Assembly: GCF_030285665.1 (NCBI RefSeq)
Contig: NZ_CP127295.1
Span: 10,602,001-10,666,000 of the forward strand
Direction: 5' to 3'
DNA from: Amycolatopsis mongoliensis
GTDB taxonomy: Bacteria > Actinomycetota > Actinomycetes > Mycobacteriales > Pseudonocardiaceae
Length of the DNA: 64,000 bases
Position numbers and translations under genes: made by a program
Notes under the pieces: generated by a model
The model's database searches: none
What the model saw: the letters and a program-made list of their open reading frames with translations, nothing else
What the model was told of the DNA's origin: nothing
Part shown: positions 31,019 through 47,278 of the stretch, piece by piece
Layout: each line of letters begins with the position of its first letter
How positions within the stretch are numbered: position 1 is the first letter of the stretch

Positions 31019-31022
31019 AAAG

Positions 31023-31073
31023 CCGTGAATGGCACATTGAGGGACTTAGAGTCCCTCAATGTGCCATTCACGG
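31023..31073. repeat. Long palindrome, class 2, copy 2
   Basis: A perfect 24-bp stem (left arm begins CCGTGAATGGCACATTGAGG) with a TAG loop, between the converging xylA and dehydrogenase/ThuA genes. Compared with 20437-20487, the inner GGCAC replaces GTCGC and the opposite arm changes to match, so pairing is conserved. Confidence 0.85.
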
Positions 31074-31077
31074 ACTT

Positions 31078-34000
31078 CTAGGACACTGTCAGGGTGTCGA
31101 CGTCGAACAGGGAACCCGCGCCGCCCCGGAAGACCAGGTGGAGCGGGCCCGAGCCCGGCGTCACCGTCGCCGAGACCGTCTGGAACGTCTCCCAGCCGCC
31201 CGTGACGGGCACCGTGACCGTGCCCAGCAGGGTGCCGGTCGCCGAGCCGTCGCGGATCTCGATCGTGCCGCCCGCGCCGGCGGAGGACACGACCGCGCTG
31301 AACCGCGTGATGCCCGCCGTGCTCACCGAGGCGTACCCGGCCCAGTCGCCGTTCTCGATGTAGCCCAGGGTGTTCCCGCCGCTCGCCGGAGCGTGCGGCG
31401 CGATCTGCACGCCCGAGCCCGACGTGAACGACTCACCCTCCACGGTGGTGGCCGGGGAGGACCCGCAGTCCGCCGGGACGACCCCGGCGGCGTACCGGAT
31501 CCCGCCGAGCAGTTCGGTCCGGAACGCGGTGTCTGCGTACGACTCGATCGTGTGGCCGAGCCCGGTGTAGAACGCGCGGCCCGCGCCCTGCGGGTGACAC
31601 CACGTGATCGGGTGGTCAGCACCCATCTCGCCGCCGGTGTAGCTGGACTCGTCCAGCGTCTGCAGCACGTGCACGTTGCCACGCGGGTTCGTCCGGTAGT
31701 TGTACAGCTCGTCCGTCCGGGTCCAGACCGCCGGCAGGTGCGCCGTCGCCGGGTGGGTGCCGTCCTCCGTCACGAACCGGGCCGCCTGGATCGCCGGGTG
31801 GCTCTTGAACCAGGCGCCGACGAGCGTGCCGTACCACGGCCAGTCGTACTCGGTGTCCGCCGCGGCGTGAATGCCGAGGTAGCCGCCGCCACCCTCCACA
31901 TAGGACTCGAACGCCGCCTGCTGCGTGGCGTCCAGGACGTCACCGGTGGTCGACAAGAAGATCACCGCCCGGTACTTCGCCAGTTCGGTGGCCGTGAAGA
32001 CCGAAGCGTCTTCGGTCGCCGTCACCCCGAACCCCTGAGCCGCGCCCAGCTCCCGGATCGCCTGGATCCCGGCCGGGATCGAGTCGTGCCGGAAGCCGGC
32101 CGTCTTGGAGAACACCAGCACGTCGTACGCGGGATCGACCTGGGTCGGCATGGTGCTCAGGCTAAAGGTGTCGATGTCGAACAGGGAACCGGAACCGCCG
32201 CGGAACACCAGGAACAGCGGCCCGGACCCGCTCGACACCGACGCCGTGACGGTCTGGAACACCTCCCAATCCCCGGTCGAAGGCACCGAAACCGTGCCCA
32301 GCAGCGTCCCGGTGGCCGACCCGGACCGGATCTCGATCGTGCCGCCGGCGCCGGCCGACGACACCCGTGCGGTGAACGTCCGCGCGCCCGCCGTGCTCAC
32401 CGACGCGTATCCGGCCCAGTCGCCGTTCTCGATGTAGCCCAGGGTGTTCCCGCCGCTCGCCGAGGCGTGCGGGGCGATCTGGACCCCCGAACCGGACGTG
32501 AACGACTCCCCTTCGACCGCGCCCGCCTGGGTGGCGGTGGTGAAGGTGAACGCGTCGACGTCGAACAGGTTGCCCTGCCCGGTGACACCCTTGAACACGA
32601 GGTACAGCGTGGTCGTCCCGGACGGCCGGTTCGCCAGGTTCGCCGTCACGGTTTGGAACGTGTCCCAGTCCCCGGTGTTGGCGACGGCCGCCGACCCGAG
32701 CAGGGTGCCGGTCGGCGAACCCGCCCGGACCTCCAGCGTCCCGCCGGGGCCGCCGGACGACACACGCGCGCTGATCGACGTCGCGTTGCCCAGCGCGTAC
32801 GGCGTGAACGAGATCCAGTCTCCGTCGTCGGTGTACCCGACGGTCCGGCCGCCCTCCGCGGAACCGTGGTCGGCGAGCTGGATCCCGGACTGGGCCGAGA
32901 AGTGCTCACCCTGGCGGTGCCGCGGCTGGAGCTTGTGGACGCTGTGCGACGTCAGCCCGCCATTGTCGGTGTACTGCGCGTCGAAGACGCCGAAGATGTT
33001 CGCCGCGGCGTCGTGCTCGCCGTCGACCGGGACGGCGATCGAGCCGCTGCACCCGGTCTGCTGGGTGATCTGGTGCTGGTGGCTGTCGTGGCCGAGGAGG
33101 TAGGTGACCTTGACCTTCGAGCAGTCGAGCGGCCCGTCCTCCGGGTCGCTGCCGGTCACCTGGAACGGCACGGTGTCCCCGAAGGAGAACAGCTGCCCGT
33201 CCGCCGGCACCCCCAGGGAGATCGACGGCGCGGTGTTCCCGACCGTGACGACCAGGCTCGCGGTGCCGGTCAGGCCCTCCGGATCGGACACCGTGAGCGT
33301 CGGCGAGTAGGTGCCGTTGGTGGTGTAGGTGTGCGCGGGGTTCGCCGACGTCGACGTCTGACCGTCGCCGAAGTCCCAGCGGTAGCTCAGCGCCCCGCCT
33401 TCGGGATCGCTGCTGCCCGCGGACGAGAAGGTCACGGTCAGCGGGTTCGGGCCGGACGTCTTGTCGGCCGCGGCTTTCGCGACCGGGTTGCGGTTCGTGC
33501 CGGCGAGGTACTCGATGCGGTGGAGCGCCTGGTTGTCGTCGCCGGTGCCGTAGTCGAGGACGTACAGGGCGCCGTCGGGACCGAACGCCATGTCCATGAC
33601 CTGCGTGCCGGTCCACGGGAAGTCCTCGATGGTGCCGCGGCTGCCGTCGGCGTTGACGGTCACCGCCTTGATCCACTTGCGTCCGTACTCCCCGGCGAAG
33701 TACTTGCCGTCCAGGGACTGCGGGAACTTGACCGTGGACGTCGAAGCGGCGTCGTAGCGGTAGACCGGACCGCCCATCGGCGACTCCGAGCCGCTGCCGA
33801 ACTCCGGCGGCGAGCCCTCGTCGCCGGCGTACTTGATCCACGCGGGCTTCGGCACGGGCAGCTTGGCGAGCCCGGTGTTGCGGAACGAGGAGTTCGTCGG
33901 GCCGCCGGCGCAGTCGTACTTCGCGCCCGACGGGCCGCTCGGGAACGTGAAGTGGTTGTACGTCTCGGTCGTCGTGTTCGAGCCGGTGCAGTACGGCCAG

Positions 34001-34956
34001 CCGAAGTTGCCCGGCTCGGTGATCCGGTCGAACTCGACCTGACCCTGCGGCCCACGGTTCGGATCGGTGACGCCGGCGTCCGGGCCGTAGTCGCCGAGGT
34101 AGACGACGCCGGTCGGTTTGTCGACACTCATCCGGAACGGGTTGCGGAAGCCCATCGCGTAGATCTCCGGCCGGGTGTTCGCGGTCCCCGGCGCGAAGAG
34201 GTTGCCCGACGGGACCGTGTACGTCCCGTCGGCTTGCGGGTGGATCCGCAGCAGCTTGCCGCGCAGGTCGTTCGTGTTGCCGGACGAGCGTTGCGCGTCG
34301 AACTGCGGGTTGCGGGTGGTCCGTTCGTCGATCGGCGAGTAGCTGTCGGAGGAGAACGGGTTGGTGTCGTCGCCGGTGGTGAGGTAGAGGTTGCCGGCGG
34401 CGTCGAAGTCGATGTCACCCCCGACGTGGCAGCACTGGCCGCGGTCGTTGGCCACCTTGAGGACGACCTTCTCGCTGGCCAGGTCGAGGGTGTTGTCGGT
34501 CTTCAGGACGAACCGCGACAGGTGCAGCTCGCCCTTGAACGGCGCGAAGTCGGCTTCGGTGCCGTCGGTCGGCGCGTCACCGTCCGGTGTGGACAGCCGC
34601 GGTGAGTAGTACAGCCAGACGTAGCGGTTGGTGGCGAAGCCGGGGTCGGCGGCGACACCCTGGAGGCCTTCTTCGTCGTGGGTGTAGACGTTCAGCTTGG
34701 CCGCGACGGACGTCGCGCCGGCCGCGGTGGTGACGCGGACGGTGCCGTCGCGGGAGGTGTGCACGACCGAACGGTCCGGCAGGACGGCGAGCGACATCGC
34801 CTCGCCGAGCTCGGCCGCGCCGGTGGCGAGGGCGACCTGCTGGTAGTCCGCGGGCGGGATGTCCGCTCTGGCCGGAGCGTCGACGGTGAGCAGGAGGCCG
34901 GCGCCCAGGAGCGCGGTGCCGAACAGCCTCGCCCACTTCGGTGGGGACGGAGACAT
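31078..34956 (-). CDS. Secreted PQQ-type sugar dehydrogenase/PKD/CBM6/ThuA multidomain protein
   Basis: A 1292-residue exported protein. Signal peptide about 1-31. Residues 40-480 form a soluble glucose/sorbosone dehydrogenase beta-propeller (VAADPGFATNRYVWLYYSPR, CCHVGGDIDFDAAGNLYLTT, PEIYAMGFRNPFRMSVD, DYGPDAG, FGPDGALYVLDYG). A PKD domain follows (LSYRWDFGDGQTS), then an intervening Ig-like region, and two CBM6-type domains (GYTDDGDWISF; GYIENGDWAGYASVS). A ThuA domain comes next (VFSKTAGFRHDSIPAGIQA, YLGIHAAADTEYDWPWYG, AFYTGLGHT), and a third CBM6 ends the protein. AGGAAGGA precedes ATG 34956. Likely oxidises or remodels polysaccharide-bound sugars outside the cell. Confidence 0.88.
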   Translation of the reverse strand: MSPSPPKWARLFGTALLGAGLLLTVDAPARADIPPADYQQVALATGAAELGEAMSLAVLPDRSVVHTSRDGTVRVTTAAGATSVAAKLNVYTHDEEGLQGVAADPGFATNRYVWLYYSPRLSTPDGDAPTDGTEADFAPFKGELHLSRFVLKTDNTLDLASEKVVLKVANDRGQCCHVGGDIDFDAAGNLYLTTGDDTNPFSSDSYSPIDERTTRNPQFDAQRSSGNTNDLRGKLLRIHPQADGTYTVPSGNLFAPGTANTRPEIYAMGFRNPFRMSVDKPTGVVYLGDYGPDAGVTDPNRGPQGQVEFDRITEPGNFGWPYCTGSNTTTETYNHFTFPSGPSGAKYDCAGGPTNSSFRNTGLAKLPVPKPAWIKYAGDEGSPPEFGSGSESPMGGPVYRYDAASTSTVKFPQSLDGKYFAGEYGRKWIKAVTVNADGSRGTIEDFPWTGTQVMDMAFGPDGALYVLDYGTGDDNQALHRIEYLAGTNRNPVAKAAADKTSGPNPLTVTFSSAGSSDPEGGALSYRWDFGDGQTSTSANPAHTYTTNGTYSPTLTVSDPEGLTGTASLVVTVGNTAPSISLGVPADGQLFSFGDTVPFQVTGSDPEDGPLDCSKVKVTYLLGHDSHQHQITQQTGCSGSIAVPVDGEHDAAANIFGVFDAQYTDNGGLTSHSVHKLQPRHRQGEHFSAQSGIQLADHGSAEGGRTVGYTDDGDWISFTPYALGNATSISARVSSGGPGGTLEVRAGSPTGTLLGSAAVANTGDWDTFQTVTANLANRPSGTTTLYLVFKGVTGQGNLFDVDAFTFTTATQAGAVEGESFTSGSGVQIAPHASASGGNTLGYIENGDWAGYASVSTAGARTFTARVSSAGAGGTIEIRSGSATGTLLGTVSVPSTGDWEVFQTVTASVSSGSGPLFLVFRGGSGSLFDIDTFSLSTMPTQVDPAYDVLVFSKTAGFRHDSIPAGIQAIRELGAAQGFGVTATEDASVFTATELAKYRAVIFLSTTGDVLDATQQAAFESYVEGGGGYLGIHAAADTEYDWPWYGTLVGAWFKSHPAIQAARFVTEDGTHPATAHLPAVWTRTDELYNYRTNPRGNVHVLQTLDESSYTGGEMGADHPITWCHPQGAGRAFYTGLGHTIESYADTAFRTELLGGIRYAAGVVPADCGSSPATTVEGESFTSGSGVQIAPHAPASGGNTLGYIENGDWAGYASVSTAGITRFSAVVSSAGAGGTIEIRDGSATGTLLGTVTVPVTGGWETFQTVSATVTPGSGPLHLVFRGGAGSLFDVDTLTVS

Positions 34957-35091
34957 GCCTGTTCCTTCCTGATTTTGAGCGTGCTTCGCCCCGGTGTGGC
35001 GCGAAGCCGGTTTCGATCGCCTTCCGACGGGGCTGGCGGTCACCCGCTGAACAGAAGCGTTGATGCGTGCGTGAGCGGTCTGCCGCGGCTT

Positions 35092-35137
35092 GTCGTGAGT
35101 GGTTAGGGCGGTTAGAACCGCCCTAACCACTCACGAC
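35092..35137. repeat. Long palindrome, class 1, copy identical to 47218-47263
   Basis: A 46-bp palindrome starting GTCGTGAGTGGTTAGGGCGG and closing on its complement. It is 23 bases past the last ebo-region gene on the minus strand and identical over its full length to the element at 47218-47263. It may end the ebo transcript. Confidence 0.88.
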
Positions 35138-35160
35138 GCTGGCGGCAGGGTGCGGCACCC

Positions 35161-36165
35161 TTACGGTTTCGAGGAGAAGGCGGCGTCGAACGCCGCCGTG
35201 GGTGGGGTGAAGTTGAGCTTGCGGACGAACTCGAGCGCTTCGGGAGCGCCGATGAGCCGGTCCATGCCCGCGTCCTCCCACTCGATGGAGATCGGGCCGT
35301 CGTAACCGATGGCGTTGAGCATCCGGAAGACGTCCTCCCAGGGGACGTCTCCGTGGCCGGTGGACACGAAGTCCCAGCCGCGGCGCGGGTCGGCCCAGGG
35401 CAGGTGGGAGCCGAGCCGGCCGTTGCGGCCGTTGAGCTGCTTGCGGGCCTCCTTGCAGTCGACGTGGTAGATGCGGTCCTTGAAGTCCCACAGGAACCCG
35501 GCCGGGTCGAGGTCCTGCCAGACGAAGTGCGACGGGTCGAAGTTCAGCCCGAACGCCTCGCGGTGGCCGATCGCCTCGAGCGTCCGGACCGTGCTCCAGT
35601 AGTCGTAGGCGATCTCGCTCGGGTGCACCTCGTGGGCGAAGCGCACGCCGACCTCGTCGAACACGTCCAGGATCGGGTTCCAGCGGGCGGCGAAGTCGGC
35701 GTACCCGCGTTCGATCATCGACGGCGGCACCGGCGGGAACATCGCCACCGTGTGCCAGATCGACGACCCGGTGAAGCCGACCACAGTGGACACTCCGAGC
35801 TTCGCCGCGGCGCGGGCGGTGGTCTTCATCTCCTCCGCCGCCCGCTGCCGGACGCCCTCGGGCTCGCCGTCGCCCCAGATCCGGGCCGGCAGGATGGCCT
35901 CGTGCCGCTCGTCGATCGGGTGGTCGCAGACGGCCTGGCCGAGCAGGTGGTTCGAGATCGCCCACACCTTGAGGTCGTACTTGGCCAGTGTCGCCAGCTT
36001 CGCCTGGACATAGCCGTCTTCCGCCACCGCTCGATCCACTTCGAAGTGGTCACCCCAGCAGGCGATTTCGAGGCCTTCGTAGCCCCAGCCGCTCGCCAGC
36101 TCGCACACCTCCTCGAACGGCAGATCGGCCCACTGCCCGGTGAACAGGGTCAACGGTCGTGCCAT
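35161..36165 (-). CDS. TIM-barrel sugar phosphate isomerase/epimerase, end of ebo operon
   Basis: A 334-residue xylose-isomerase-like TIM barrel. Motifs: [53 protein letters not shown] (metal Glu/His), [22 protein letters not shown] and [14 protein letters not shown], covering the usual metal ligands. It follows the EboF-like gene by 21 bases, so it is probably the last gene of the operon. A keto-aldose isomerase or epimerase activity on a cyclitol or sugar intermediate is plausible. Confidence 0.85.
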
Positions 36166-36186
36166 GTCTGACCTCCTGGATGAGTC

Positions 36187-37554
36187 CTACTCGGTACGGA
36201 CCGCCGCTAGCAGCAGATCCTTGACTTCGGTGGCGTGGATCTTTTCGCGCGCGAGCGCCGGATCGGAGCACAGCAGCACAGGCCCGTCTTCGGGAGAGTC
36301 GGGCAGGCGCCCGTGGCTGCCGCGCACCGGCGTGGGGTCGAGCGGGACGACCTGCATCGAGTAGCGCAGACCGAGTTTCTTGCGGACGAGCGCGGACGCC
36401 GCCTTCAGCTTCACCGCCGGATCGTCCGGGTCGAAGAACAGCTCGGCCGGGTCGTAGCCGGGCTTGCGGTGGATCTCGACGGTCTTCGCGAAGTCCGGCG
36501 CGCGGTCGTCGTCGAGCCAGTAGTAGTACGTGAACCACGCGTCCGGCTCCGCGATCGCGACCAGTTCGCCCGCGCGTTGGTGGTCGATCCCGATGCTCGC
36601 CTGCCCCGGACGATCCAGGACGACGTCCACACCGGACAGTCCGGCGACGATGTCCCGCACCCGCGGGATGTCGGCGGGGTCGGCTACGTAGACGTGCGCG
36701 ACCTGGTGGTCCGCCACCGCGAACGCCCTTGACGTCCACGGGTCCAGGTACTCCATGCCGGCCTGGACGTACACGCTGAGCAGGCCCTCGCGACGCAGCG
36801 CCCGGTTGATGTCCACCGGCCGGCTCGCGTTGGTGATGCCGTACTCCGAGAGCGCGACGACGGTGTGCCCGCCGGCGGCCGCGAAGTCCAGCAAGGGCTT
36901 CAACGCGGTGTCGATCTCGCGCGCGGCAGCTTCGGCCTGGGGCGCGTCCGGGCCGAAACGCTGCAGGTCGTAGTCCAGGTGCGGGAGGTAGACGAGCGTG
37001 GTGTCCGGCTGGTCTTCCGCCATGATCTTCTGCGCCGCGGCGATGATCCACTTCGACGACGTGATCGCCGCCGTCGGCCCCCAGTAGGTGAACAGCGGGA
37101 ACTCGCCGAGCGCGCCGACGAGCCGGTCGTGCAGCTGCGGCGGGTGGGTGTAGGCGTCCGGGGACTTCTTGCCGTCGGCGTGGTAGATCGGCCGCGGGGT
37201 CACCGTGAGGTCGACGTCCATGCCCATCGCGTACCACCAGCAGACGTTGGCGACCTTGTGGCCGGCCTGCGCGCGGCGGGCGGCGTCCCAGAACTTGTCG
37301 CCCTGGACCAGCTTGTTGTGCTGGCGCCAGAGGAGGATCTCGCCGAGGTCGCGGAAGTACCAGCCGTTGCCGACGATGCCGTGCTCGGCCGGCTGCAGCC
37401 CGGTGAGGAAGGTCGACTGCACCGAGCAGGTCACCGCCGGGAACACCGTGTCGAGCTGCGCGGTGAAGCCGGGCTCGGCCATCCTGCGCAGGTTGGGCAT
37501 GTGCGGGAGCAGCCGAGGCGTCAGGCCGACGACGTCGAGGACCAGCAAACTCAT
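36187..37554 (-). CDS. eboF: EboF-like alkaline phosphatase-superfamily phosphodiesterase
   Basis: A 455-residue protein of the nucleotide pyrophosphatase/phosphodiesterase type. LLVLDVVGLTPRLLPHMPNL contains the first metal Asp. FPAVTCSVQSTFLTGLQPAE places a Thr nucleophile near residue 40, then HGIVGNGWYF. Later metal residues appear in YLPHLDYDLQRFG, VVALSEYGI and VDVVLDR-like segments. There is no signal peptide. It starts by ATGA overlap with eboE. In ebo clusters this enzyme is a standard member. The expected reaction is hydrolysis of a phosphodiester or pyrophosphate bond on a pathway intermediate. Confidence 0.85.
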   Translation of the reverse strand: MSLLVLDVVGLTPRLLPHMPNLRRMAEPGFTAQLDTVFPAVTCSVQSTFLTGLQPAEHGIVGNGWYFRDLGEILLWRQHNKLVQGDKFWDAARRAQAGHKVANVCWWYAMGMDVDLTVTPRPIYHADGKKSPDAYTHPPQLHDRLVGALGEFPLFTYWGPTAAITSSKWIIAAAQKIMAEDQPDTTLVYLPHLDYDLQRFGPDAPQAEAAAREIDTALKPLLDFAAAGGHTVVALSEYGITNASRPVDINRALRREGLLSVYVQAGMEYLDPWTSRAFAVADHQVAHVYVADPADIPRVRDIVAGLSGVDVVLDRPGQASIGIDHQRAGELVAIAEPDAWFTYYYWLDDDRAPDFAKTVEIHRKPGYDPAELFFDPDDPAVKLKAASALVRKKLGLRYSMQVVPLDPTPVRGSHGRLPDSPEDGPVLLCSDPALAREKIHATEVKDLLLAAVRTE

Positions 37555-38678
37555 TCCGTAACCTCTTCCAAGCCCAGTTCGATCAAGGAACGCCGCGCCC
37601 AGTCGAGCTCGGCGGCGATGCCCGCGACGAGCCCGGCGTCGTCGGCGGGTGCGTCCGGGAGCACCTGCCAGGTGTAGGTCTCGACCTCGACGTGGTCGGT
37701 GCGCGCGGTCGCGCCGCCGAACAGCTCGGCCAAGGTCGCGGCCAGCACCGGCCGGGTCGAGGTCAGCGGCGGCGCCGGGTCGGCGTGCAGCGGCACGTGG
37801 AAGTGCACCCGCCACGGCGCCTCGCCGGGCAGTCCCCCGGCCAACGCGAGGTCCAGGTCGTCGGCGCCCGGTGGAGCGCTTTCGTTGCTCTGGTGCAGGA
37901 ACCGCGGTTCCACGAACGATTCCAGGGCCTTCCGGGTCGCGGGATCAGCGGGGCTCGCGGCTTCCAGTGCCGCCGACGCCTGGAGCTTGACGACGTCGAG
38001 CCCGGCGGCCGCCAACCGCCCGAGCGCGGCGCCGGGGTCCTCGAACCCGACCGCGAGGTGACAGGTGTCGAGGCAGACGCCGAGCCAATTCTTGTCCACT
38101 TCGGACAGCAACGCGGCCGCCTGCGTCGTCGTCTCGATGACGCAGCCGGGCTCGGGCTCGAACGCCACGCGGACCGGACGGTCCTGCCTGGCCAGCCCCT
38201 TGGCCAGCAGTTCGAGCTGGCCACCGTCGTCCCGCCACTCCGTGCGCCACCCCAGCGGCAACGTCGAGACGCTGCCGCGGACGGCGTCCTCCGGCATCAG
38301 CTCGGCGAGCAGCCGAGCCAGGTCGAGGGTGTACTGCGTCCGCTCGGGCGTCGACCAGTCCGGCCGGTACACCTTGTGCTTGACGACCGGGTCGTGGAAG
38401 CCCTGGTAGGGGAACCCGTTGAGGGTGACGACCTCCAGGCCGCGCGCGGCCAGTTCGCCGCGGAGCCGCGAGACCGCCGCCGGGTCGGCGACCAGCTCGC
38501 TCGCCACCGGGCGGGCCAGCCACAGGCCGAGCCCCAGCCGGTCCACCCCCAGCCGTTCCCGGACCGGCTCGCCGAAGCGGGCCAGCTGGGTGAGCACACC
38601 GGCGAGGTCCTCGGCCTGGTGCACGTTGGTGCAGTAGGCGAGGTGGACGGGCGTGCCGTCGGGGTGCCGGAACCTCAC
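37551..38678 (-). CDS. eboE: EboE-type metabolite-traffic TIM-barrel protein
   Basis: A 375-residue protein with the EboE pattern: HLAYCTNVHQAEDLAGVLTQ, LGLGLWLARPVASEL, ARGLEVVTLNGFPYQGFHDP, VYRPDWSTPERTQYTLDLA, VAFEPEPGCVIETT, WLGVCLDTCHLAVGFEDP and FHVPLHADP. It has a xylose-isomerase-like barrel with Glu, Asp and His metal ligands. The GTG at 38678 overlaps the EboB stop (GTGA), giving tight coupling. In cyanobacteria the ebo set is tied to moving a precursor across the inner membrane. The product here is unknown. Confidence 0.9.
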   Translation of the reverse strand: MRFRHPDGTPVHLAYCTNVHQAEDLAGVLTQLARFGEPVRERLGVDRLGLGLWLARPVASELVADPAAVSRLRGELAARGLEVVTLNGFPYQGFHDPVVKHKVYRPDWSTPERTQYTLDLARLLAELMPEDAVRGSVSTLPLGWRTEWRDDGGQLELLAKGLARQDRPVRVAFEPEPGCVIETTTQAAALLSEVDKNWLGVCLDTCHLAVGFEDPGAALGRLAAAGLDVVKLQASAALEAASPADPATRKALESFVEPRFLHQSNESAPPGADDLDLALAGGLPGEAPWRVHFHVPLHADPAPPLTSTRPVLAATLAELFGGATARTDHVEVETYTWQVLPDAPADDAGLVAGIAAELDWARRSLIELGLEEVTE

Positions 38679-39526
38679 TTGCGCGCACCTCGCAGGATCG
38701 AGTTGCCCGCGAACTCGGCAGGCGCGGTGTCCGGCTCGAGGTCGAGCCGCCCGCTCTGGCCGTAGAACTCGACGGGGTTGCGCCACAGCACCCGGTCGAC
38801 GTCGTCCTCGGTGAACCCGGCGGCCAGCATCGCGTCGCCGGTCCTGCGGGTCTTGAGCGGGTCGCTCTTGCCCCAGTCGGCGGCCGAGTTCACCAGCACC
38901 TTTTCGGTCCCGTATTCGCGCAGGATGGCCACCATCCGCTCTTCGTCCATCTTCGTGTCCGGGTAGATCGAGAACCCCATCCAGGAGCCCGACTCCTTGA
39001 CCATCGCGACGGTCATCTCGTTGAGGTGGTCGAGCACCACGCGCTCGGGTGCGATCCCCGACTCGCGGACGACGGCGATGCTGCGCTCGGTCCCGGCGGC
39101 CTTGTCGCGGTGCGGGGTGTGCACGAGGGCGGGCAGGTCGTGGTCGATCGCCAGCGCGAGCTGCGCGGCGAACGCCTCGTCCTCCTCCGCGGTCATCGAG
39201 TCGTAGCCGATCTCGCCGACCGCGACCACGCCGTCCTTCTCCAGATAGCGCGGCAGGAGGTCCAGCACCGGCGCGCACCGCGGGTCGTTGGCCTCCTTGG
39301 GGTTCAGCGCGATCGTGCAGTGGTGGGCGATGCCGAACTGGCTCGCGCGGAACGGTTCCCAGCCGACGAGCGCGTCGAAGTAGTCGGTGAAACTGCCGAC
39401 GTTCGTGCGGGGCTGGCCCAGCCAGAACGCCGGCTCGACGAGCGCGCGGACGCCGGCGGCGTGCATGGCCGCGTAGTCGTCGGTGGTGCGGGAGCTCATG
39501 TGGATGTGCGGGTCGAAGATGCGCAT
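38675..39526 (-). CDS. eboB: EboB-type TatD-like metal hydrolase
   Basis: A 283-residue amidohydrolase/TatD-fold protein: MRIFDPHIHMSSRTTDDY (HxH), VAVGEIGYDSMTAEED, PALVHTPHRDKAAGTER, RVVLDHLNEMTV and VLVNSAADWGKSDPLKT, with the terminal metal Asp in NSAADWG. No signal peptide is seen. It overlaps EboA by one base and EboE by four. Its fixed position between EboA and EboE matches known ebo operons. Confidence 0.88.
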   Translation of the reverse strand: MRIFDPHIHMSSRTTDDYAAMHAAGVRALVEPAFWLGQPRTNVGSFTDYFDALVGWEPFRASQFGIAHHCTIALNPKEANDPRCAPVLDLLPRYLEKDGVVAVGEIGYDSMTAEEDEAFAAQLALAIDHDLPALVHTPHRDKAAGTERSIAVVRESGIAPERVVLDHLNEMTVAMVKESGSWMGFSIYPDTKMDEERMVAILREYGTEKVLVNSAADWGKSDPLKTRRTGDAMLAAGFTEDDVDRVLWRNPVEFYGQSGRLDLEPDTAPAEFAGNSILRGARK

Positions 39527-40071
39527 CAGGCGTCCTGTTCGGTCAGCAGCGGGAGGAGGTCGGCGGGCACGTCGCGGCCCGCGGCGGTGCGCTCGGCGGC
39601 GAACGACCGCATCATCCGCAGCAGCTCGTCGTCGGTCCGGCGGTCCAGCCCGGCCACCTCGGCCAGGGGGATGCCCATGAAGACGCACTTGAGGACGCCG
39701 TGGCGGTAGGCCGCGTCGTCCAGGTGGGCGGCGGCGTACTCCCCCATCGCGGCGGTGACGAGCCGGGGGTCGTTGGTCCGCAGCGCGTCGGCGACCAGGT
39801 CGAGCCCGGCAGCTCCTGTGTCCACAACGGACAGTCCACGGAGGACGGCCCGTTTTTCGGCGGCGTCGCCGTAGCGGTAGAGGTCGGGCATCTCGGCGGC
39901 CGCACCGGGTGCGGCCTGGAGCAGCCGGACGCGAGCGACGTCGTCGACCGTCCACCCCGGCGTGTCCGACGGACCGCGGCCGACGCGGCGGCCGACGCCG
40001 GGGAACAGCGTGCGCAACGCCGTCGCGTCGGTGGCGACCTTGCTCAGGGCTTCGTCGAGCCAGGCGTTCAC
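39526..40071 (-). CDS. eboA: EboA-domain protein
   Basis: A 181-residue all-helical protein of the EboA family: VDDVARVRLLQAAP, YRYGDAAEKRAVLRGLSVVD, LRTNDPRLVTAAMGEYAA, YRHGVLKCVFMGIPLAEVAG and LLRMMRSFAAERTAAGR. The alternating NDPRLV and YRHGVLK helices are typical. Biochemical role unknown; it is the name-giving marker of ebo clusters. It overlaps both neighbours (one base with EboB, four with the upstream TIM barrel). Confidence 0.9.
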   Translation of the reverse strand: MNAWLDEALSKVATDATALRTLFPGVGRRVGRGPSDTPGWTVDDVARVRLLQAAPGAAAEMPDLYRYGDAAEKRAVLRGLSVVDTGAAGLDLVADALRTNDPRLVTAAMGEYAAAHLDDAAYRHGVLKCVFMGIPLAEVAGLDRRTDDELLRMMRSFAAERTAAGRDVPADLLPLLTEQDA

Positions 40072-40889
40072 GCCGTCACCGCCTTCCGCAGGAACTCCAG
40101 GGACTCCCGCGCGATCCGCGGGGCTGCGTGGCTGTCCCGCGGCAGTTCCACCGCGACCAGCCCGCGGTACGGCGACAGCGCTTCCAGCACGGGCGGGAAG
40201 TCGATCTCGCCCCGCCCGAACTCCAGGTGCTCGTGGGTGCCGCGGCGCATGTCGTCGATCTGGACGTTCACCAGCCGCGGCAGCGCCCGCCGGACGCAGT
40301 CGGGCACCGACGCGGACTCGTTGCAGCGGCAGTGCCCGATGTCCAGTGTCAGGCCGAACCGCTCCGGGTCACCCAGGCGCCGGGCCAGCTCGAAATAGCC
40401 GTCGAGGTCCTCGACGAGCATCCCCGGCTCCGGCTCGAAGCCGAGCTTGACGTCGTGCTCGTCGGCCGCCTTGAGCACGTCGGCACACCCGTCGGCCAGC
40501 TGTGTCCAGGCGTCCTCGGCGGGAAGCTCGGCGGGCTTGGTCCCGCTCCAGAAGGAAACCGCTTCCGCCCCGAGGTCCGCGGCGATCTCGACCGCCCGGG
40601 TCAGGAACTCGATGCGCACGGCCCGGTCGGGGTCGAGGAACGTCGGCGAGTGCTTGCGCCACGGGTCCAGCAGGAACCGGGCCCCCGTCTCGACGACGAC
40701 GGCCAGCCCGAGCCGATCGAGGTCCGCGGCGACTTCGGCGGCGCGGCGGGCGAGATCCGGCCCGAACGGGTCGAGGTGCTGGTGGTCGAGGGTCAGCGCG
40801 ACGCCGTCGTAGCCCAGGTCCGCGAGGACGCGCAGGGCGTCGCCGAGGCGGTGGTTGGCGAAGCCGTTGGTGCCGTACCCGAACCTCAT
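40068..40889 (-). CDS. TIM-barrel sugar phosphate isomerase/epimerase inside ebo operon
   Basis: A 273-residue xylose-isomerase-like barrel: RFGYGTNGFANHRLGDALRV, GYDGVALTLDHQHLDPFGPD, VVVETGARFLLDP, LGFEPEPGMLVEDLDGYFEL, GLTLDIGHCRCNE and LVAVELPRDSHAAP. Metal-site Glu, Asp and His are all present. It starts and ends with 4-base overlaps (with EboC and EboA). It is an addition to the classical six-gene ebo set and may process a cyclitol or sugar phosphate. Confidence 0.85.
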   Translation of the reverse strand: MRFGYGTNGFANHRLGDALRVLADLGYDGVALTLDHQHLDPFGPDLARRAAEVAADLDRLGLAVVVETGARFLLDPWRKHSPTFLDPDRAVRIEFLTRAVEIAADLGAEAVSFWSGTKPAELPAEDAWTQLADGCADVLKAADEHDVKLGFEPEPGMLVEDLDGYFELARRLGDPERFGLTLDIGHCRCNESASVPDCVRRALPRLVNVQIDDMRRGTHEHLEFGRGEIDFPPVLEALSPYRGLVAVELPRDSHAAPRIARESLEFLRKAVTA

Positions 40890-41725
40890 GTCGGCGACAC
40901 CTTCCGGCTCAGCGCCCGCGCGATCGGGAACGCGGCGGCGACGGCCAGCGCCGAGCGCCACGCCCCGGTGCGGGCGATCAGCCCGGCCTGCAGCGGGATC
41001 ATGCCGTGGATGCCCGCGCCGACCGCCCGCCGGATCTTCGGCGCGGCCGGGTCGCGGACGGCGTCGTACTGCGCCCGCCCGGTGGTCACCGCGTACGCCC
41101 CGAGCAGCGCCGAGGCCAGCGGGCCGACGCGGCCGGCGGCGACGCGCACCCCGGCCGTGGCGGCGAGGGTGGCCGCCGGCAGGGCGGGCTTGGCACCGTC
41201 CACTTCGGACCTTGACAACGTCGTCACCGCGTAGGTGTGGGCCCCGACGGTCAGCGCCGCGGGCACGGCCGCGCGAGCGCCGCCCGCGCCGAGCAGGACG
41301 TCGAGCGCGCGGGCCGCGGCCATCGCGGCCGGTCCGAACACGGTCTCCTTGAGCACGAAGTCGTACGCCCAGACCGTCGCGGCCAGCGGCAGGGCGACGC
41401 GCAGCGCCCGTTTCCCGCCGGCGGCCGCGGCGATGCCCAGCCCGCCCGCGGTCAGCCCGGTGGCGACGCCGAGCGCGGTGCCCGGCTTGACCCGGCCGGA
41501 CGGGATCGGCCGCTCGGGCCGTTCCATCGCGTCGAGGTAGCGGTCGGTGTAGTCGTTGAGCGCCATGCCCGCCCAGTAGAGGCAGACGGACGCGCCGGTC
41601 AGAGCCAGCGTCCGGCGGCCGAACGGCCAGCCCGAGGCGGCGGCCCCGGCGACGGCGTCCCCGGGCACGGTCAGCGCCGCGGGCGCGCGGACGAGTTCGA
41701 CGAGCGCCTTCACCGGTTCGCCCAC
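40886..41725 (-). CDS. eboC: EboC-type UbiA-family prenyltransferase
   Basis: A 279-residue protein with seven to eight membrane helices. The first Asp-rich motif is YWAGMALNDYTDRYLDAMER followed by PERPIPSGRV, matching NxxxDxxxD of UbiA-superfamily enzymes. The second half has FVLKETVFGPAAMAAARALD and a later motif less conserved than in true UbiA. It would attach a prenyl diphosphate to a soluble acceptor at the inner membrane. It overlaps the inositol-phosphate-synthase-like gene by 16 bases and the TIM barrel by four. Confidence 0.85.
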   Translation of the reverse strand: MGEPVKALVELVRAPAALTVPGDAVAGAAASGWPFGRRTLALTGASVCLYWAGMALNDYTDRYLDAMERPERPIPSGRVKPGTALGVATGLTAGGLGIAAAAGGKRALRVALPLAATVWAYDFVLKETVFGPAAMAAARALDVLLGAGGARAAVPAALTVGAHTYAVTTLSRSEVDGAKPALPAATLAATAGVRVAAGRVGPLASALLGAYAVTTGRAQYDAVRDPAAPKIRRAVGAGIHGMIPLQAGLIARTGAWRSALAVAAAFPIARALSRKVSPT

Positions 41726-42819
41726 TCACGCAGGGCCGCGTACTGCGACGCGAGGTCGTGCGGGCCGTCGCCGACGGGATCCTTGAAGAAGAACCCGAAC
41801 TCGGCCACCGGGCCGGCGACGCCGTCGCGGCACGCCTTGCCGGTCAGCCGGGCCAGGTCGAGCACCAGCGGCGCGGCGAGCGCGGAGTCGCAGCCCTGCC
41901 AGGTGAGCTGCAGCGTCATGCGCGTGCCGAGGAAACCTTCGAACAGCACGTGGTCCCAGGCGGTCTTCCAGTCGCCGAGCGCCGGGACGTAGTCGATGTG
42001 CACTTCCCCGTCGACCTCCCGGCCGAGGTTCTGCGCAAGCACCTGCTGCTTCGACGCGTTCTTGCTCGACGCCGCGCCGGGGTCGGTGAGCGTGGCACCG
42101 TCCCCGCCACCGAGCAGGTTCGTGCCCGACCAGGACAGGACGTTCAGCGCGCGCTGGGCGAACATCGGCGCGAGCACCGACCGCAGCAGCGTCTCGCCGG
42201 TCTTGCCGTCGCGGCCCGCGTAGGGCTGCCCGGCAGCGCGGGCCAGTTCGTCGAGCGCGGGCAGCCGCGCGCCGGTGGACGGGGTGAAGTCGACAAAGCC
42301 ACAGCCCGCGCGGAACGCGGCGTAGGCGTACAAGGCGCTGGGCGGCAGGACTTCCAGCGCATCCTCCAACGCGGCCAGCGACGCGTGCGCCGGGTGCGGC
42401 GCGCAGGGCGGTTCGGTGGAGGAGACGTTGAGCACGACGACGTGGTCCAGACCCTCGCGGAACTCGGTCAGGTCCGCGACGATCCGATCGACCGCCGGGC
42501 GCCCGCCGCCGGACGGCGCCGGGCGGAGCCGGGATTCGGCCGCTTCCAGCTCGGCCGTGACCGGGCCGGGCAGCGTGGCCGGCAGCACCCCCGCCGCCGC
42601 CAGCTGGTCCGCCCGCTTGACCAGCGGCGTGCCGACGACGTCGTGGCCTCCGAAGACCAGGTCCCCCAAGCCGGGCAGCGCCGCCCCGGCGAAGTCCGGC
42701 AGCTCGGTCACGCACCCCGTGCGCGCGGCGAGTCCCGCCCGCATCGCGGCGGCCCCGGCGACGGCCGTGGTGGCCACCGATCCGCGGGCTCCGATCAGCC
42801 AGACACCGATCTTCCCCAT
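41710..42819 (-). CDS. Inositol-3-phosphate-synthase-like cyclase at the head of the ebo operon
   Basis: A 369-residue MIPS-family protein. GVWLIGARGSVATTAVAGAA is the NAD-binding loop. Core motifs follow: VVVLNVSSTEPPCAPHP, FRAGCGFVDFTPSTGARLPA, GRDGKTGETLLRSVLAPMFA, LSWSGTNLLGGGDGATL, ASSKNASKQQVLAQNLG, HIDYVPALGDWKTAWDH. The catalytic Lys-rich DGKTGET and SKN..K elements are intact, so it should cyclise glucose-6-phosphate or a related sugar phosphate using NAD. Known ebo operons carry the DHQS-like cyclase EboD instead. It leads the eight-gene operon. Confidence 0.88.
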   Translation of the reverse strand: MGKIGVWLIGARGSVATTAVAGAAAMRAGLAARTGCVTELPDFAGAALPGLGDLVFGGHDVVGTPLVKRADQLAAAGVLPATLPGPVTAELEAAESRLRPAPSGGGRPAVDRIVADLTEFREGLDHVVVLNVSSTEPPCAPHPAHASLAALEDALEVLPPSALYAYAAFRAGCGFVDFTPSTGARLPALDELARAAGQPYAGRDGKTGETLLRSVLAPMFAQRALNVLSWSGTNLLGGGDGATLTDPGAASSKNASKQQVLAQNLGREVDGEVHIDYVPALGDWKTAWDHVLFEGFLGTRMTLQLTWQGCDSALAAPLVLDLARLTGKACRDGVAGPVAEFGFFFKDPVGDGPHDLASQYAALREWANR

Positions 42820-42840
42820 GTTTCCTCCCTGGTCAGTGGT

Positions 42841-42930
42841 TCAGCCCGCGCCCGCCGCTCGTTCGCCGGGCGCGCCGAGGCCCACCCCGTGTCCATCGGC
42901 CGGCGGGGGCAGGCGTTTCCCTTCGGTCAT
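42841..42930 (-). CDS. Possible 29-residue coupled leader ORF
   Basis: ATG 42930 overlaps the ROK stop codon as ATGA, and the frame encodes MTEGKRLPPPADGHGVGLG plus ten residues ending AAGAG before a TGA at 42841. It ends 21 bases before the inositol-phosphate-synthase-like gene. GGACAGCGG is a weak ribosome site. It is Gly/Pro-rich with no recognisable domain. It could be a coupling ORF, a small peptide, or chance; no neighbour supports a function. Confidence 0.25.
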   Translation of the reverse strand: MTEGKRLPPPADGHGVGLGAPGERAAGAG

Positions 42931-44198
42931 CCGCTGTCCCTTTCCGCCTGCACCGGCACCAGCGCCGGGTCGTCGAACACCGCCTGCAGCGCGACGTGCG
43001 CCCCGCCGCGCGCGGCCGCGGAGAACCCGAGCCAGGACAGCTCGACGCGGCAGCCCCCGATGCGAGGGGCGATCACCCGGGCCTCCAGCTCGGTCATCAT
43101 CGGGCCCAGCAGGTACGGGCCCAGCTGGGCGAAGTAGCCGCCGAGCAGCACCACGCGCGGGTTGAAGACGTTGACCAGCACGGCCGCGCCGACGCCGAGG
43201 CCGGTGCCGACCTGCGCGAGCGCGTCGAGGGTCCGCTTGTCCTTCAGCTGGGCGCGGCGGCGGATCATGTCGAGCCGCTGTTCGAGGTCGAGCGACGGGT
43301 CGTGCACCGGGTCGGCCGGCGACGCGGCGAGCCGCAGCATCCCGGCCAGCCCGACGAGCGTCTCCCAGCAGCCGCGGCGCCCGCACCCGCAGACGCGGCC
43401 CCCGGGATCGACCTGGATGTGCCCGACCTCTCCGGAAAACCCTTCCGCACCACCGAGCAGCCGTCCTCCGGAGATCACGCCGCCGCCGACGCCGATCTCG
43501 CCGGTCAGGTACACCAGATCGGCGGTCCCGGCGACGCTGCCCATCGCGTACTCGCCGAGCGCGCCGAGGTTCGCGTCGTTGGCCGTGCGGATCGGGAACG
43601 ACGGCGGCCCGAGCCGCCGGGTCAGCCGCTCGGTGATGCCGCGGACCACCGGGACGTCGGTCCAGTGCAGGTTCGGCGCGAAGGCGACGGTGCCGCTCGT
43701 GACGTCGACCAGCGCCGGGATGCCGACGGTCACGCCGGCCGGCACGACCCCGAGCCGCCGGCACTCCCGCAGCGCACGCGCGGTCAGCTCCGCGCCCGCG
43801 TCGAGCACCTTCGCCACCGGAAGGGCTTGGACGTCGAGCGCCACGCGCTGTTCGAAGAGCACGGTGCCGGTGAGGTCGAGGGCGAGCGCGGTCAGGTAGT
43901 CGACGTTGATCTCGACGCCGATGCCGCCGACGCCGCGGCCGTCCAGCTCGACGATCGTGCCCGGGCGCCCGACCGCGCCGGCGCGTTCGCGCTCGCCTTC
44001 CCGCGCCAGCCCGCGCTCGACGAGTTCCGAAACGAGGCTCGAGACGGTCCCCTTGTTCAGCCCGGTGTCCGCGGCGATCGCCGCCCGCGAGCGGGGTCCC
44101 GCATCCCGCAGGTGCCGCAGCACCAGCGCCAGGTTGCTCCGGCGGACGGCGGCCTGGTCGGCCGGGCGCACCGGTTTGAGCGAAAAGGAGGAGTCCAC
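42927..44198 (-). CDS. ROK-family regulator of the ebo operon
   Basis: A 423-residue ROK repressor: winged helix about 15-75 (LALVLRHLRDAGPRSRAAIA, LNKGTVSSLVSELVERGLAR), then GGIGVEINVDYLTALALDL, FAPNLHWTDV, RTANDANLGALGEYAMG, YLTGEIGVGGGVISGG and zinc motif CGCGRRGCWE. The GTG at 44198 (VDSSFSLKP) is preferred with GGGGTGGTG upstream; a TTG at 44234 is also in frame. It is 107 bases ahead of the ebo operon on the same strand and an imperfect ROK-type dyad lies at its own start. It probably represses itself and the operon in response to a sugar. Confidence 0.85.
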   Translation of the reverse strand: MDSSFSLKPVRPADQAAVRRSNLALVLRHLRDAGPRSRAAIAADTGLNKGTVSSLVSELVERGLAREGERERAGAVGRPGTIVELDGRGVGGIGVEINVDYLTALALDLTGTVLFEQRVALDVQALPVAKVLDAGAELTARALRECRRLGVVPAGVTVGIPALVDVTSGTVAFAPNLHWTDVPVVRGITERLTRRLGPPSFPIRTANDANLGALGEYAMGSVAGTADLVYLTGEIGVGGGVISGGRLLGGAEGFSGEVGHIQVDPGGRVCGCGRRGCWETLVGLAGMLRLAASPADPVHDPSLDLEQRLDMIRRRAQLKDKRTLDALAQVGTGLGVGAAVLVNVFNPRVVLLGGYFAQLGPYLLGPMMTELEARVIAPRIGGCRVELSWLGFSAAARGGAHVALQAVFDDPALVPVQAERDSG

Positions 44199-44218
44199 GC
44201 CGACACCACCCCGGTTCG

Positions 44219-44235
44219 TCTGGTGGTTCAACAAA
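44219..44235. promoter_or_regulatory. Imperfect ROK-type operator
   Basis: TCTGGTG-GTT-CAACAAA; on the other strand it reads TTTGTTG-AAC-CACCAGA. Arms match at five of seven positions and the outer TTTGTT/AACAAA style is like ROK sites elsewhere. It overlaps the possible TTG start of the ROK gene and sits 21 bases before the preferred GTG. Confidence 0.45.
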
Positions 44236-44487
44236 TTAGGTGCGGCGAAACGATCGGGTCAACGGCGCCTTTCGTGGACAAAAGCCACAGAAATCGTTCT
44301 GACCAGCGAAACTATCGAACGCGGCCAGCAAAAGGGTCCCACGGATGGAGCAGGGGTTAGGGCGTGCACCCGCCCGAATCCCACCGCCGAACGGGACCGA
44401 CTTCCGTCGTGTACCGCTGACCGGGACGCAGGAACTCTTGCCGCGCAACGACGCGAAAGTGCCGCGACAGCACCGAAACTTTCCGCA

Positions 44488-44573
44488 AGCGCCCCAAGGT
44501 GGCCTTGGTTGCGCTCAACGCACCGAAGGCCGCCTTGGGTGCGTTGGACGCACCGAAGGCCACCTTGGGGCGC
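44488..44573. repeat. Three-unit palindromic element, class 3, copy 3
   Basis: AGCGCCCCAAGGTGGCCTTG and its complement enclose two GCGTT-type turns and a central unit AAGGCCGCCTT (44526-44536). The framework (CCCCAA..TTGGGG, CGCACCGAA) equals the 17515 and 18678 copies, but AATGTGGCGTT has become AAGGTGGCCTT in the left arm with the complementary change in the right arm. It ends five bases from the MarR stop. The 343-base gap 44236-44578 otherwise shows no gene. Confidence 0.8.
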
Positions 44574-44578
44574 TCGGG

Positions 44579-45028
44579 TCAGGGGGTGAAGGTGAGGGTG
44601 CCGAGCGCGGCGACCAACGGTGCCAGTTCCGGCAAGGACTCGGCTTCGGCGAGGGCTTCCGCCAGTGCCGTGTCGTGGGTCGGACGCGCCGCCGTCAGCA
44701 GCGTCTGGCCCGCCGGCGTCACCTCCGTGTAGATGCCCCGGCGGTCGTCCGCGCAGAGGTAGCGGGCCAGCAGCCCGCGGCCCTCCAGCCGCGTGACCAG
44801 CCGGGTGGTCGCCGACTGGCTCAGCACCACCGCGTTGGCGAGCTGGTTCATCCGGAGGTGGAAGCCGTCCTGGCGGGCCAGCGCGTCGAGCACGCTGTAC
44901 TCGCTCACCGACAGTTCGTGGTCGCGCTCGAGCGCGCGCTGCAGCCTGTCCTCGATCCGCGCGTGCAGCGCGGCCAGCGTGCGCCAGCCCTGCGCGCGGG
45001 CTTCGACGGCGTCGTCGTCCAGTGACAC
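44579..45028 (-). CDS. MarR-family regulator
   Basis: A 149-residue MarR protein: LHARIEDRLQRALERDHELS, EYSVLDALARQDG, LRMNQLANAVVLSQSATTRL (recognition helix) and LEGRGLLARYLCADDRRGIY (wing) with the conserved DDRR. No redox-sensing Cys pair except one Cys in the wing. It is divergent from the MFS/aldo-keto reductase pair, and repeated TGTGCAA boxes fill the shared promoter region. It probably represses that pair and itself. Confidence 0.9.
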   Translation of the reverse strand: MSLDDDAVEARAQGWRTLAALHARIEDRLQRALERDHELSVSEYSVLDALARQDGFHLRMNQLANAVVLSQSATTRLVTRLEGRGLLARYLCADDRRGIYTEVTPAGQTLLTAARPTHDTALAEALAEAESLPELAPLVAALGTLTFTP

Positions 45029-45060
45029 GGTTCACCTCTCCCGGGCTTGCGCGTACTCCC

Positions 45061-45114
45061 TTGCACGCTGCACTATCAAGCCTGTGCAATATACGGCGTG
45101 TGCAACTATATCGG
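45061..45114. promoter_or_regulatory. MarR operator region with repeated TGTGCAA boxes
   Basis: TTGCAC at 45061 is inverted to GTGCAA at 45084, and TGTGCAATATACGG (45083-45096) recurs as TGTGCAACTATATCGG (45099-45114), a 16-base spacing. The TATA-like cores may be -10 elements. The block lies between the MarR and MFS starts. Confidence 0.65.
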
Positions 45115-45164
45115 ACGCTCGTAGTTGCTCACGCCCACAAGCCTACCCTGGAAGAAGGAAGTCC

Positions 45165-46349: not shown

Positions 46350-46372
46350 ACCTCCCACCGAAAGGAACCCTC

Positions 46373-47206
46373 GTGACCAGCGTGCCCGTGATCGAACTCA
46401 ACAACGGCGTGCGGATGCCCCAACTGGGCTACGGCGTGTTCCAGGTCCCGGACGACGAGACCACCGCCGCCGTGAAGGCCGCCCTCGAAGCGGGCTACCG
46501 CAGCATCGACACCGCCGCCATCTACGGCAACGAGAAGGGCGTCGGCCAGGCGATCGCCGAGTCCGGCATCGCCCGCGACGAGCTGTTCGTCACCACCAAG
46601 CTGTGGAACTCCGCCCAGGGCTACGACACGACGCTCAAGGCCTTCGACGAGAGCATGAAGAAGCTGGGCCTGGAGCAGCTGGACCTGTACCTGATCCACT
46701 GGCCGACGCCGGAGCGCGACAAGTACCTCGACACGTGGAAGGCGTTCGAGAAGCTGCACGCCGACGGACGCGTCCGCGCGATCGGCGTGTCCAACTTCCA
46801 GCCCGCGCACCTCGAGCGACTGCTCGACGCGGCCGACGTCGCCCCGGCCGTCAACCAGATCGAGCTCCACCCCTACCTGCAGCAGCAGGAGGTCCGCGAG
46901 TTCGACGCGAAGCACGGCATCGCGACCGAGGCGTGGAGCCCGCTGGCCAAGGGCGGCTCGCTGCTGGGCGACCCGATCGTCGCGGACCTGGCGGTCAAGC
47001 ACGGCCGCACGCCGGCGCAGATCGTGCTGCGCTGGCACCTGCAGCTGGGCAACGTCGTGATCCCGAAGTCCGTGACGCCGTCACGGATCGCGGAGAACTT
47101 CGACCTGTTCGGGTTCACCCTCTCGGAGGAGGAGCTGGACTCGCTGACCCCGCTGGACCGCGGCGAGCGCACCGGCCCGGACCCGGACACCTTCAACGCC
47201 GCCTGA
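46373..47206 (+). CDS. Aldo/keto reductase
   Basis: A 277-residue NADPH-dependent reductase. VPVIELNNGVRMPQLGYGVF opens the barrel. The tetrad appears as GYRSIDTAAIYGNE (Asp, Tyr), TKLWNSAQG (Lys) and YLIHWPTPE (His); VIPKSVTPSRIAENFDLF binds NADPH. The GTG at 46373 has AAAGGA upstream; an ATG at 46346 overlaps the MFS stop and would add nine residues. It probably reduces reactive aldehydes or ketones exported or generated with the MFS substrate. Confidence 0.93.
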   Translation: MTSVPVIELNNGVRMPQLGYGVFQVPDDETTAAVKAALEAGYRSIDTAAIYGNEKGVGQAIAESGIARDELFVTTKLWNSAQGYDTTLKAFDESMKKLGLEQLDLYLIHWPTPERDKYLDTWKAFEKLHADGRVRAIGVSNFQPAHLERLLDAADVAPAVNQIELHPYLQQQEVREFDAKHGIATEAWSPLAKGGSLLGDPIVADLAVKHGRTPAQIVLRWHLQLGNVVIPKSVTPSRIAENFDLFGFTLSEEELDSLTPLDRGERTGPDPDTFNAA

Positions 47207-47217
47207 CCCGCACCCCC

Positions 47218-47263: not shown

Positions 47264-47278
47264 GAGCCGCGGCAAAGC

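Follow-up and report, generated by a model that had tools for sequence, protein, structure and literature searches.

Gene content of the locus

The subject of this analysis is an ebo-type gene unit in a 64,000-nucleotide stretch of the Amycolatopsis mongoliensis genome, a 10.8-Mb single contig; this whole stretch (C1:10602001-10666000) is referred to as the window. The unit spans window positions 35161-42819 and consists of eight genes, all on the minus strand. It shares EboA, EboB, an EboC-like protein, EboE and EboF in an overlapping arrangement with the ebo operon eboABCDEF (Yurchenko 2016, PMC5133447; Klicki 2018, PMC6282210). It differs from this operon in lacking EboD, in carrying an inositol-phosphate synthase (MIPS) together with the TIM barrel TIM1, in having a prenyltransferase of the SCO3242 family and an added TIM3, and in its gene order. 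Starting from the first gene, the unit contains:

41710..42819, minus strand: MIPS, archaeal-type NAD-dependent inositol-phosphate synthase, 369 AA (amino acids), first gene of the unit; PF07994 153.8 bits and PF01658 114.6 bits
40886..41725, minus strand: EboC-like UbiA prenyltransferase, SCO3242 family, 279 AA; PF01040, NF045897
40068..40889, minus strand: TIM1, xylose-isomerase-like TIM barrel, 273 AA; PF01261
39526..40071, minus strand: EboA, 181 AA; NF035938, no Pfam family matched
38675..39526, minus strand: EboB, TatD-like metal hydrolase, 283 AA; PF01026
37551..38678, minus strand: EboE, TIM barrel, 375 AA; PF01261, NF035939
36187..37554, minus strand: EboF, type I phosphodiesterase/phosphatase, 455 AA; PF01663
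35161..36165, minus strand: TIM3, second added TIM barrel, 334 AA; PF01261

With start codons picked by eye among the open reading frames, six of the seven junctions overlap, by 16, 4, 4, 1, 4 and 4 nucleotides from MIPS onward, and TIM3 follows after a gap of 21 nucleotides.

The assignment of the Ebo proteins is based on family models. EboE scored 404.5 bits with the EboE equivalog model NF035939 (cut-off 250), and the EboA domain model NF035938 was passed with 163.3 bits (cut-off 50), whereas the narrower EboA_family model NF035937 was not reached (62.1 versus 320 bits). The prenyltransferase passed NF045897, the 'SCO3242 family' (384.7 bits, cut-off 260), and stayed below the EboC equivalog NF035940 (132.3 bits, cut-off 250). 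The SCO3242 prenyltransferase exceeds its cut-off in 123 of 199 Streptomyces genomes. No ebo-specific model in the NCBIfam library matched EboB or EboF; their homology to the TatD gene and to EboF, respectively, in annotated ebo loci and their clustering with the other Ebo genes place them in the set. EboF has 54 % identity to the EboF of Gemmatirosa and a weak PDB match to phosphonoacetate hydrolase. An earlier interpretation made from the nucleotide sequence alone (the sequence-only reading) had described five Ebo homologues in one overlapping eight-gene unit and had considered that the genes might match no Ebo model. Such a failure did not occur for EboE and the EboA domain, and EboB and EboF as well as six of the junctions agree with the description. 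The exception is the prenyltransferase, which fits the SCO3242 sister model instead of EboC.

MIPS and EboD in ebo loci

As the sequence-only reading had stated, a MIPS-like cyclase heads the operon (41710-42819). Its best PDB match is the Archaeoglobus MIPS 1u1i with 234 bits, with residues 6-61 and 109-367 covered by the alignment. Where the 3qvw and 3qvx chains have alanine in place of lysine, the window MIPS has retained the lysine, and all 142 distinct MIPS sequences from the examined loci have four active-site lysines in common. In its alignment and these active-site lysines the protein is like the Archaeoglobus-type inositol-1-phosphate synthase, from which it differs by being part of an ebo unit. 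A duplicate of the mycothiol-type INO1 was considered and rejected since the window MIPS is nearer to the Archaeoglobus enzyme and INO1 sits elsewhere in the genome: the window MIPS scored 45.4 versus 638 bits with the INO1 equivalog TIGR03450, and the mycothiol-type INO1 itself lies at C1:2477623 (687 bits).

The absence of EboD, also claimed before, holds for the entire host genome. Only one gene matches PF01761 (DHQ-synthase), and the best score with the EboD-type model NF004852 is 171 bits at a cut-off of 333. An EboD hidden elsewhere in the genome, which would have spoken against the earlier claim, was looked for and rejected, as no gene other than this one below the cut-off came into question with PF01761 and NF004852. 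NF004852 can be regarded as a fair EboD detector, given the 571 and 531 bits reached by two annotated EboD proteins. Of 30 actinobacterial ebo genomes, one has an EboD over this cut-off genome-wide and 29 stay below it; two of the 29 (G318 and G471) are only about 80 % complete. DHQS, EEVS and DOIS relatives could not be told apart from the PDB matches of EboD.

For the distribution of the two cyclases, EboE was chosen as the anchor where possible because it favours neither of them. EboE was found in 19 of 396 genomes of the phylum, 18 of them over the cut-off, and in 79 of 150 genomes of the window's family, covering 28 of 46 genera. The 20 EboE-anchored loci of the phylum sample, including the window, comprise 17 with MIPS, one with EboD, two with neither and none with both. 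The family sample of 40 loci (39 genomes), hand-picked from the 79 genomes as about one per genus code plus some second copies, comprises 38 with MIPS, none with EboD, two with neither and none with both. Mutual exclusion in actinobacterial ebo loci, which the sequence-only reading had proposed as a check, is thus seen in both samples. Among the matches listed for 48 plasmid records with EboE, at least 29 have MIPS, at least 15 have EboD, four have neither and none has both; these accessions were matched by hand among the best 60 of 108 MIPS and the best 60 of 115 EboD records. The plasmid MIPS records listed are 28 actinobacterial ones and Gemmatirosa, and those with EboD belong to proteobacteria, Deinococcus and Aureibacter. 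Neither cyclase is listed for Streptomyces NBC_01562, NBC_01340 and NBC_01244 and for S. fungicidicus (a 23 % partial match). Nine annotated EboD-type regions contained EboD in each case and MIPS in none.

The gene order MIPS-EboC-TIM1-EboA-EboB-EboE-EboF is shared by 16 of 19 phylum loci, by 52 of the 80 named loci anchored on MIPS and by 46 of the 60 Streptomyces loci, with several of the loci outside this count being truncated by contig ends. The homologue search drew on at most 8000 candidates. The 80 named loci are the best 80 of the matches found with MIPS itself and are uninformative on its frequency. The 60 Streptomyces loci were hand-picked and include second copies on purpose. Since the same gene order recurs across samples, the arrangement is not due to chance, and MIPS-EboC adjacency is the most constant trait at the operon head. 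A window-specific oddity was rejected because the form is common in the phylum, family, Streptomyces and MIPS-anchored samples. The MIPS type is the usual actinobacterial form of the ebo operon, and the comparison of loci provides good support for the view that MIPS takes the place of EboD. The earlier claim that the cyclase stands in for EboD agrees with the lack of any counted ebo locus with both; it had treated as special to one operon an arrangement that is standard in actinobacteria.

TIM1, TIM3 and the neighbouring secreted protein

Both added TIM barrels match PF01261, in line with the sequence-only reading, which had grouped them as two additional isomerases. They belong to different partners: TIM1 is coupled to MIPS, and TIM3 associates with the neighbouring secreted sugar-dehydrogenase/ThuA protein (BIG):

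31078..34956, minus strand: BIG, large secreted-looking protein with Pfam GSDH, PKD, CBM6 and ThuA domains; the start at 34956 was chosen by us within an open frame beginning at 35130

TIM1 occurs in 17 of 17 MIPS loci of the phylum sample and in 37 of 38 of the family sample, and two sets of EboD loci, of seven and three, gave no TIM1 match. It is fused to EboA in 6 of the 146 loci with both genes, which agrees with what Yurchenko et al. noted about the EboA of actinobacteria (PMC5133447). Its PDB matches are weak only. The residues E152, D183, H186, H221 and E248 are invariant in 26 aligned sequences, and such invariant Glu, Asp, His and Glu would fit a metal-dependent isomerase or epimerase.

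TIM3 matches 2zds with 625 bits and 8ro4, a '2-hydroxy-3-keto-glucal hydratase', with 153 bits; the latter relation points to 3-keto-sugar chemistry beside the ebo genes. In the family sample, 35 of 40 loci have a BIG match and, by our own tally, 28 of 40 a TIM3 match, counted as tblastn matches within 20-kb stretches that may miss either gene. Among MIPS loci with four or more Ebo genes, a BIG match covering GSDH and ThuA was found in 9 of 17 of the phylum sample, 45 of 62 of the MIPS-anchored sample and 40 of 46 of the Streptomyces sample. In four Planotetraspora loci and Sphaerisporangium corydalis (L060, L061, L062, L069, L055), a BIG homologue lies between EboB and EboE.

Occurrence beyond actinobacteria and outside ebo loci

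The Gemmatirosa locus carries MIPS and TIM1. In a tree of EboB, EboE and EboF it groups with the EboD-type Deinococcus and with L030, the one actinobacterial locus of the EboD type, with a support of 100/100. A preceding first tree had left out L044, whose EboE frame is broken, and L060, whose stretch contains no EboF; 36 of its rows were then used. With these 36 rows, a single clade of all non-EboD loci was rejected in a constrained test (p 6e-41), and again with three haloarchaea added and EboB and EboF only (p 9e-13); long branches are a caveat for these trees. The grouping suggests that the swap between EboD and MIPS may have happened repeatedly.

A reduced MIPS-type set, consisting of MIPS, EboF, EboB, an EboC-like gene and two TIM1-related barrels, is found on three haloarchaeal plasmids:

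L219, 3109-9659: haloarchaeal locus
L220, 3103-9404: haloarchaeal locus
L221, 2819-9492: haloarchaeal locus

These loci share MIPS, EboF, EboB, the EboC-like gene and TIM1-like genes with the window unit. They differ from it in having no EboA match, EboE scores of only 20-28 bits versus the cut-off of 250, two barrels instead of one, and the layout MIPS-EboF / EboB-barrel-EboC-barrel. Downstream of the set in Natronococcus, a barrel gene and a PQQ sugar dehydrogenase resemble TIM3 and BIG of the window. Two further haloarchaeal MIPS genes had no detected adjoining ebo gene.

MIPS and TIM1 homologues with 46-49 % identity for TIM1 also occur together outside ebo loci:

L223, 5818-12444: MIPS and TIM1 cluster
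L224, 5872-13047: MIPS and TIM1 cluster
L226, 7911-14813: MIPS and TIM1 cluster

A distinct cluster type in Hymenobacter and Roseomonas combines the pair with YcaO-like and Gfo/Idh genes, and in Methylobacterium the two homologues lie together in an unannotated stretch. Four Micromonospora loci (L082, L089, L104, L112) have MIPS of the same family without adjoining Ebo genes, near genes of the peptide-synthetase type; in L104, an inositol monophosphatase is present as well, confirmed with Pfam.

Links to antibiotic and scytonemin genes

Some Streptomyces MIPS-type ebo units lie within peptide-synthetase clusters (L135, L148) or an aromatic polyketide cluster (L150). At L198, a seven-gene unit is located between ketosynthase, acyl-CoA-oxidase, FabH-like and FAD genes and an asparagine oxygenase gene. 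The product of this last gene has four differences over 332 residues from 2og5, which we take to be the CDA asparagine oxygenase. Because of this locus, S. coelicolor probably carries the remaining genes of the seven-gene unit in its CDA cluster as well. SCO3242 and SCO3243, annotated as a transferase and as a myo-inositol phosphate synthase, are counted in that cluster (PMC3610822) and are like the window in pairing MIPS with the prenyltransferase. In contrast to the CDA cluster, no CDA peptide-synthetase or tailoring genes were found around the window unit, which has sugar genes as neighbours; L198 itself shows the CDA gene context in part only. No literature joining CDA with an inositol and prenyltransferase gene cluster was found.

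A ScyD/ScyE protein (NF033206, 255 versus 80 bits) is encoded directly upstream of MIPS in two Streptomyces plasmids. A scan of BIG, covering this protein alone, gave no ScyE_fam match. Streptomyces sp. NBC_01244 (L137, 11995-13173) has a lone EboE gene within an aromatic polyketide cluster; the annotation of this stretch names no further Ebo gene.

Neighbourhood of the unit

The unit is surrounded by xylA, BIG, ROK, MarR, MFS and aldo-keto reductase genes. The features nearest to it, apart from BIG, are:

42927..44234, minus strand: ROK-family protein upstream of the unit on the same strand; PF00480 and a winged-helix domain
35095..35134, no strand: perfect 40-base palindrome 3' of TIM3; second copy at 47221-47260

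The ROK-family protein is a candidate regulator of the unit. The palindrome has two copies in the window, after TIM3 and after the aldo-keto reductase gene, with zero expected by chance; its half-site is present 44 times genome-wide and invariably in this paired form, which corresponds to 22 copies. The palindrome may represent a terminator or a repeat element. The copy after TIM3 likely marks the end of the unit, with BIG presumably transcribed separately. There was no Rfam match within window positions 29000-48000, no promoter-like site within 34800-44500, and no excess of terminator-like sites in the latter range (two versus 3.9 in shuffles).

Discussion

MIPS enzymes convert glucose-6-phosphate to inositol 1-phosphate, a product that keeps its phosphate, and UbiA proteins are prenyl group transferases. 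The preferred reading, to which a probability of roughly 0.5 is given, is that MIPS and TIM1 would do the cyclitol-making job of EboD, that their product, a C6 cyclitol phosphate, would be prenylated by EboC, and that the resulting lipid may aid the movement or finishing of a metabolite outside the cell. We infer the reactions, their order, the product and the role in transport as follows. MIPS would form inositol 1-phosphate from glucose-6-phosphate, TIM1 and EboE would isomerise or epimerise it, and EboF would remove or shift the phosphate. EboC would then add a prenyl chain at the membrane, with EboB trimming and EboA acting as a scaffold. In the membrane, the prenyl-cyclitol would act as a carrier or anchor that allows a metabolite to reach the outer face or to be completed there. 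Secreted proteins could act on this side, namely ScyD/ScyE in a few loci and the GSDH/ThuA protein in the window.

This reading is based on the mutual exclusion of MIPS and EboD, the lysines of MIPS, the nesting of Gemmatirosa and the haloarchaeal sets, and also on TIM1 beside MIPS outside ebo loci, the monophosphatase-like gene at loci without MIPS, and the presence of MIPS elsewhere in their genomes. The farnesylation of acceptors by EboC homologues in vitro (PMC9235831) is counted in its favour.

Several observations weigh against it. MIPS is absent from 12 of the 60 Streptomyces loci, 11 of which are informative as L151 ends at a contig edge, and likewise from L027 and L044 and, in the family sample, from L259 and L293. 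Eleven of the 12 Streptomyces loci form one clade together with L027. An inositol-monophosphatase-like gene is located upstream in 7 of the 12 rows of this clade, confirmed with Pfam for L176 and judged by eye for the six others. An archaeal-type MIPS is found elsewhere in 12 of 13 genomes with a MIPS-less locus, which fits a supply in trans, yet MIPS in cis is dispensable, and genome G460 lacks the archaeal-type enzyme altogether. The case for a repeated swap comes from a single Gemmatirosa genome and locus, whose grouping was tested only after inspection of a first tree. The link to ScyD/ScyE is rare, as 159 genome loci gave no match to it. The second Asp motif of EboC appears degenerate by eye, and the measured EboC homologues, from Flavobacteria and relatives, prefer quinoline acids over cyclitols (PMC9235831). 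As a separate observation, the gene order at L176 (10319-14735) and similar Streptomyces loci places the inositol-monophosphatase-like gene and a FAD oxidoreductase directly upstream of EboC.

The two operon forms could share their later enzymes and lead to different products, for example a C7-cyclitol lipid with EboD and an inositol lipid with MIPS, which would then be another entry point. TIM1 is additional in the MIPS form, and MIPS products retain their phosphate. EboD products are described as lacking one, and Yurchenko et al. argue for sedoheptulose 7-phosphate as the substrate from the position of EboD in its superfamily tree (PMC5133447). However, MIPS and TIM1 sit on an EboD-type backbone in Gemmatirosa, which would be easier if the later enzymes meet the same intermediate, and an NDxxDxxxD-type first motif was found by eye in the prenyltransferases of both EboD-type and MIPS-type loci. 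Different products are considered unlikely.

The preference of Maribacter UbiA-297 and its relatives for quinoline acids with farnesyl diphosphate (PMC9235831) could also mean that EboC prenylates an aromatic or other metabolite and that the cyclitol serves a separate purpose, for example as a head group joined later. Since these quinoline acid substrates were supplied in vitro, since the NCBIfam relatives of EboC include glycerol-phosphate prenyltransferases, and given the constant adjacency of MIPS and EboC, this appears quite improbable.

A role in the breakdown of sugars or glycosides has a slim chance. In this case, the ROK, xylose isomerase, GSDH/ThuA and TIM3 proteins would process sugars on both sides of the membrane, and the Ebo enzymes would salvage a keto-cyclitol. 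This would account for the sugar-gene neighbours, the relation of TIM3 to 2-hydroxy-3-keto-glucal hydratase, the link of BIG and TIM3 in many actinobacteria, and the PQQ sugar dehydrogenase and barrel gene in Natronococcus. It would not account for a biosynthetic MIPS, for copies in antibiotic clusters without BIG, or for the export phenotype of Nostoc ebo mutants (PMC6282210).

It is hardly credible that MIPS is a mere neighbour that feeds inositol to general metabolism without a tie to the Ebo enzymes: actinobacteria need inositol and some ebo loci lack MIPS, but a mycothiol-type INO1 is encoded separately, MIPS heads the same gene order in many families and never occurs with EboD, and it recurs with ebo-like genes in Gemmatirosa and haloarchaea.

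A broader extension of the preferred reading is doubtful. It would see the ebo pathway as the source of a prenylated inositol-type lipid that serves as a general carrier by which small molecules are moved or finished outside the cell in actinobacteria, including antibiotic clusters such as that of CDA, in Gemmatimonadota and in haloarchaea. In that case, the EboD product would be an equivalent cyclitol with six carbons, and the published sedoheptulose 7-phosphate guess would be wrong.

The single genes are already named in public annotation, and the MIPS-type form is a widespread variant of a known operon. No description of this form was found in the literature searched, which was limited to open-licence papers and does not prove absence. 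The word 'inositol' does not occur in the main text of PMC5133447, PMC6282210 and PMC9235831. The last of these figures an ebo region for Saccharomonospora. The role of ebo genes in metabolite traffic across the membrane is known from Nostoc only (PMC6282210).

The ebo operon was named in 2016. The substrate of EboD can only be guessed from its relatives, whereas the reaction of MIPS is well defined. If MIPS and TIM1 do replace EboD, the first committed intermediate could be named and labelled, and the pathway would become accessible in Streptomyces laboratory strains. Genes of the CDA cluster that have lacked an explanation would also gain a candidate role, and ebo genes may be recruited for export or late steps by some producers of antibiotics.

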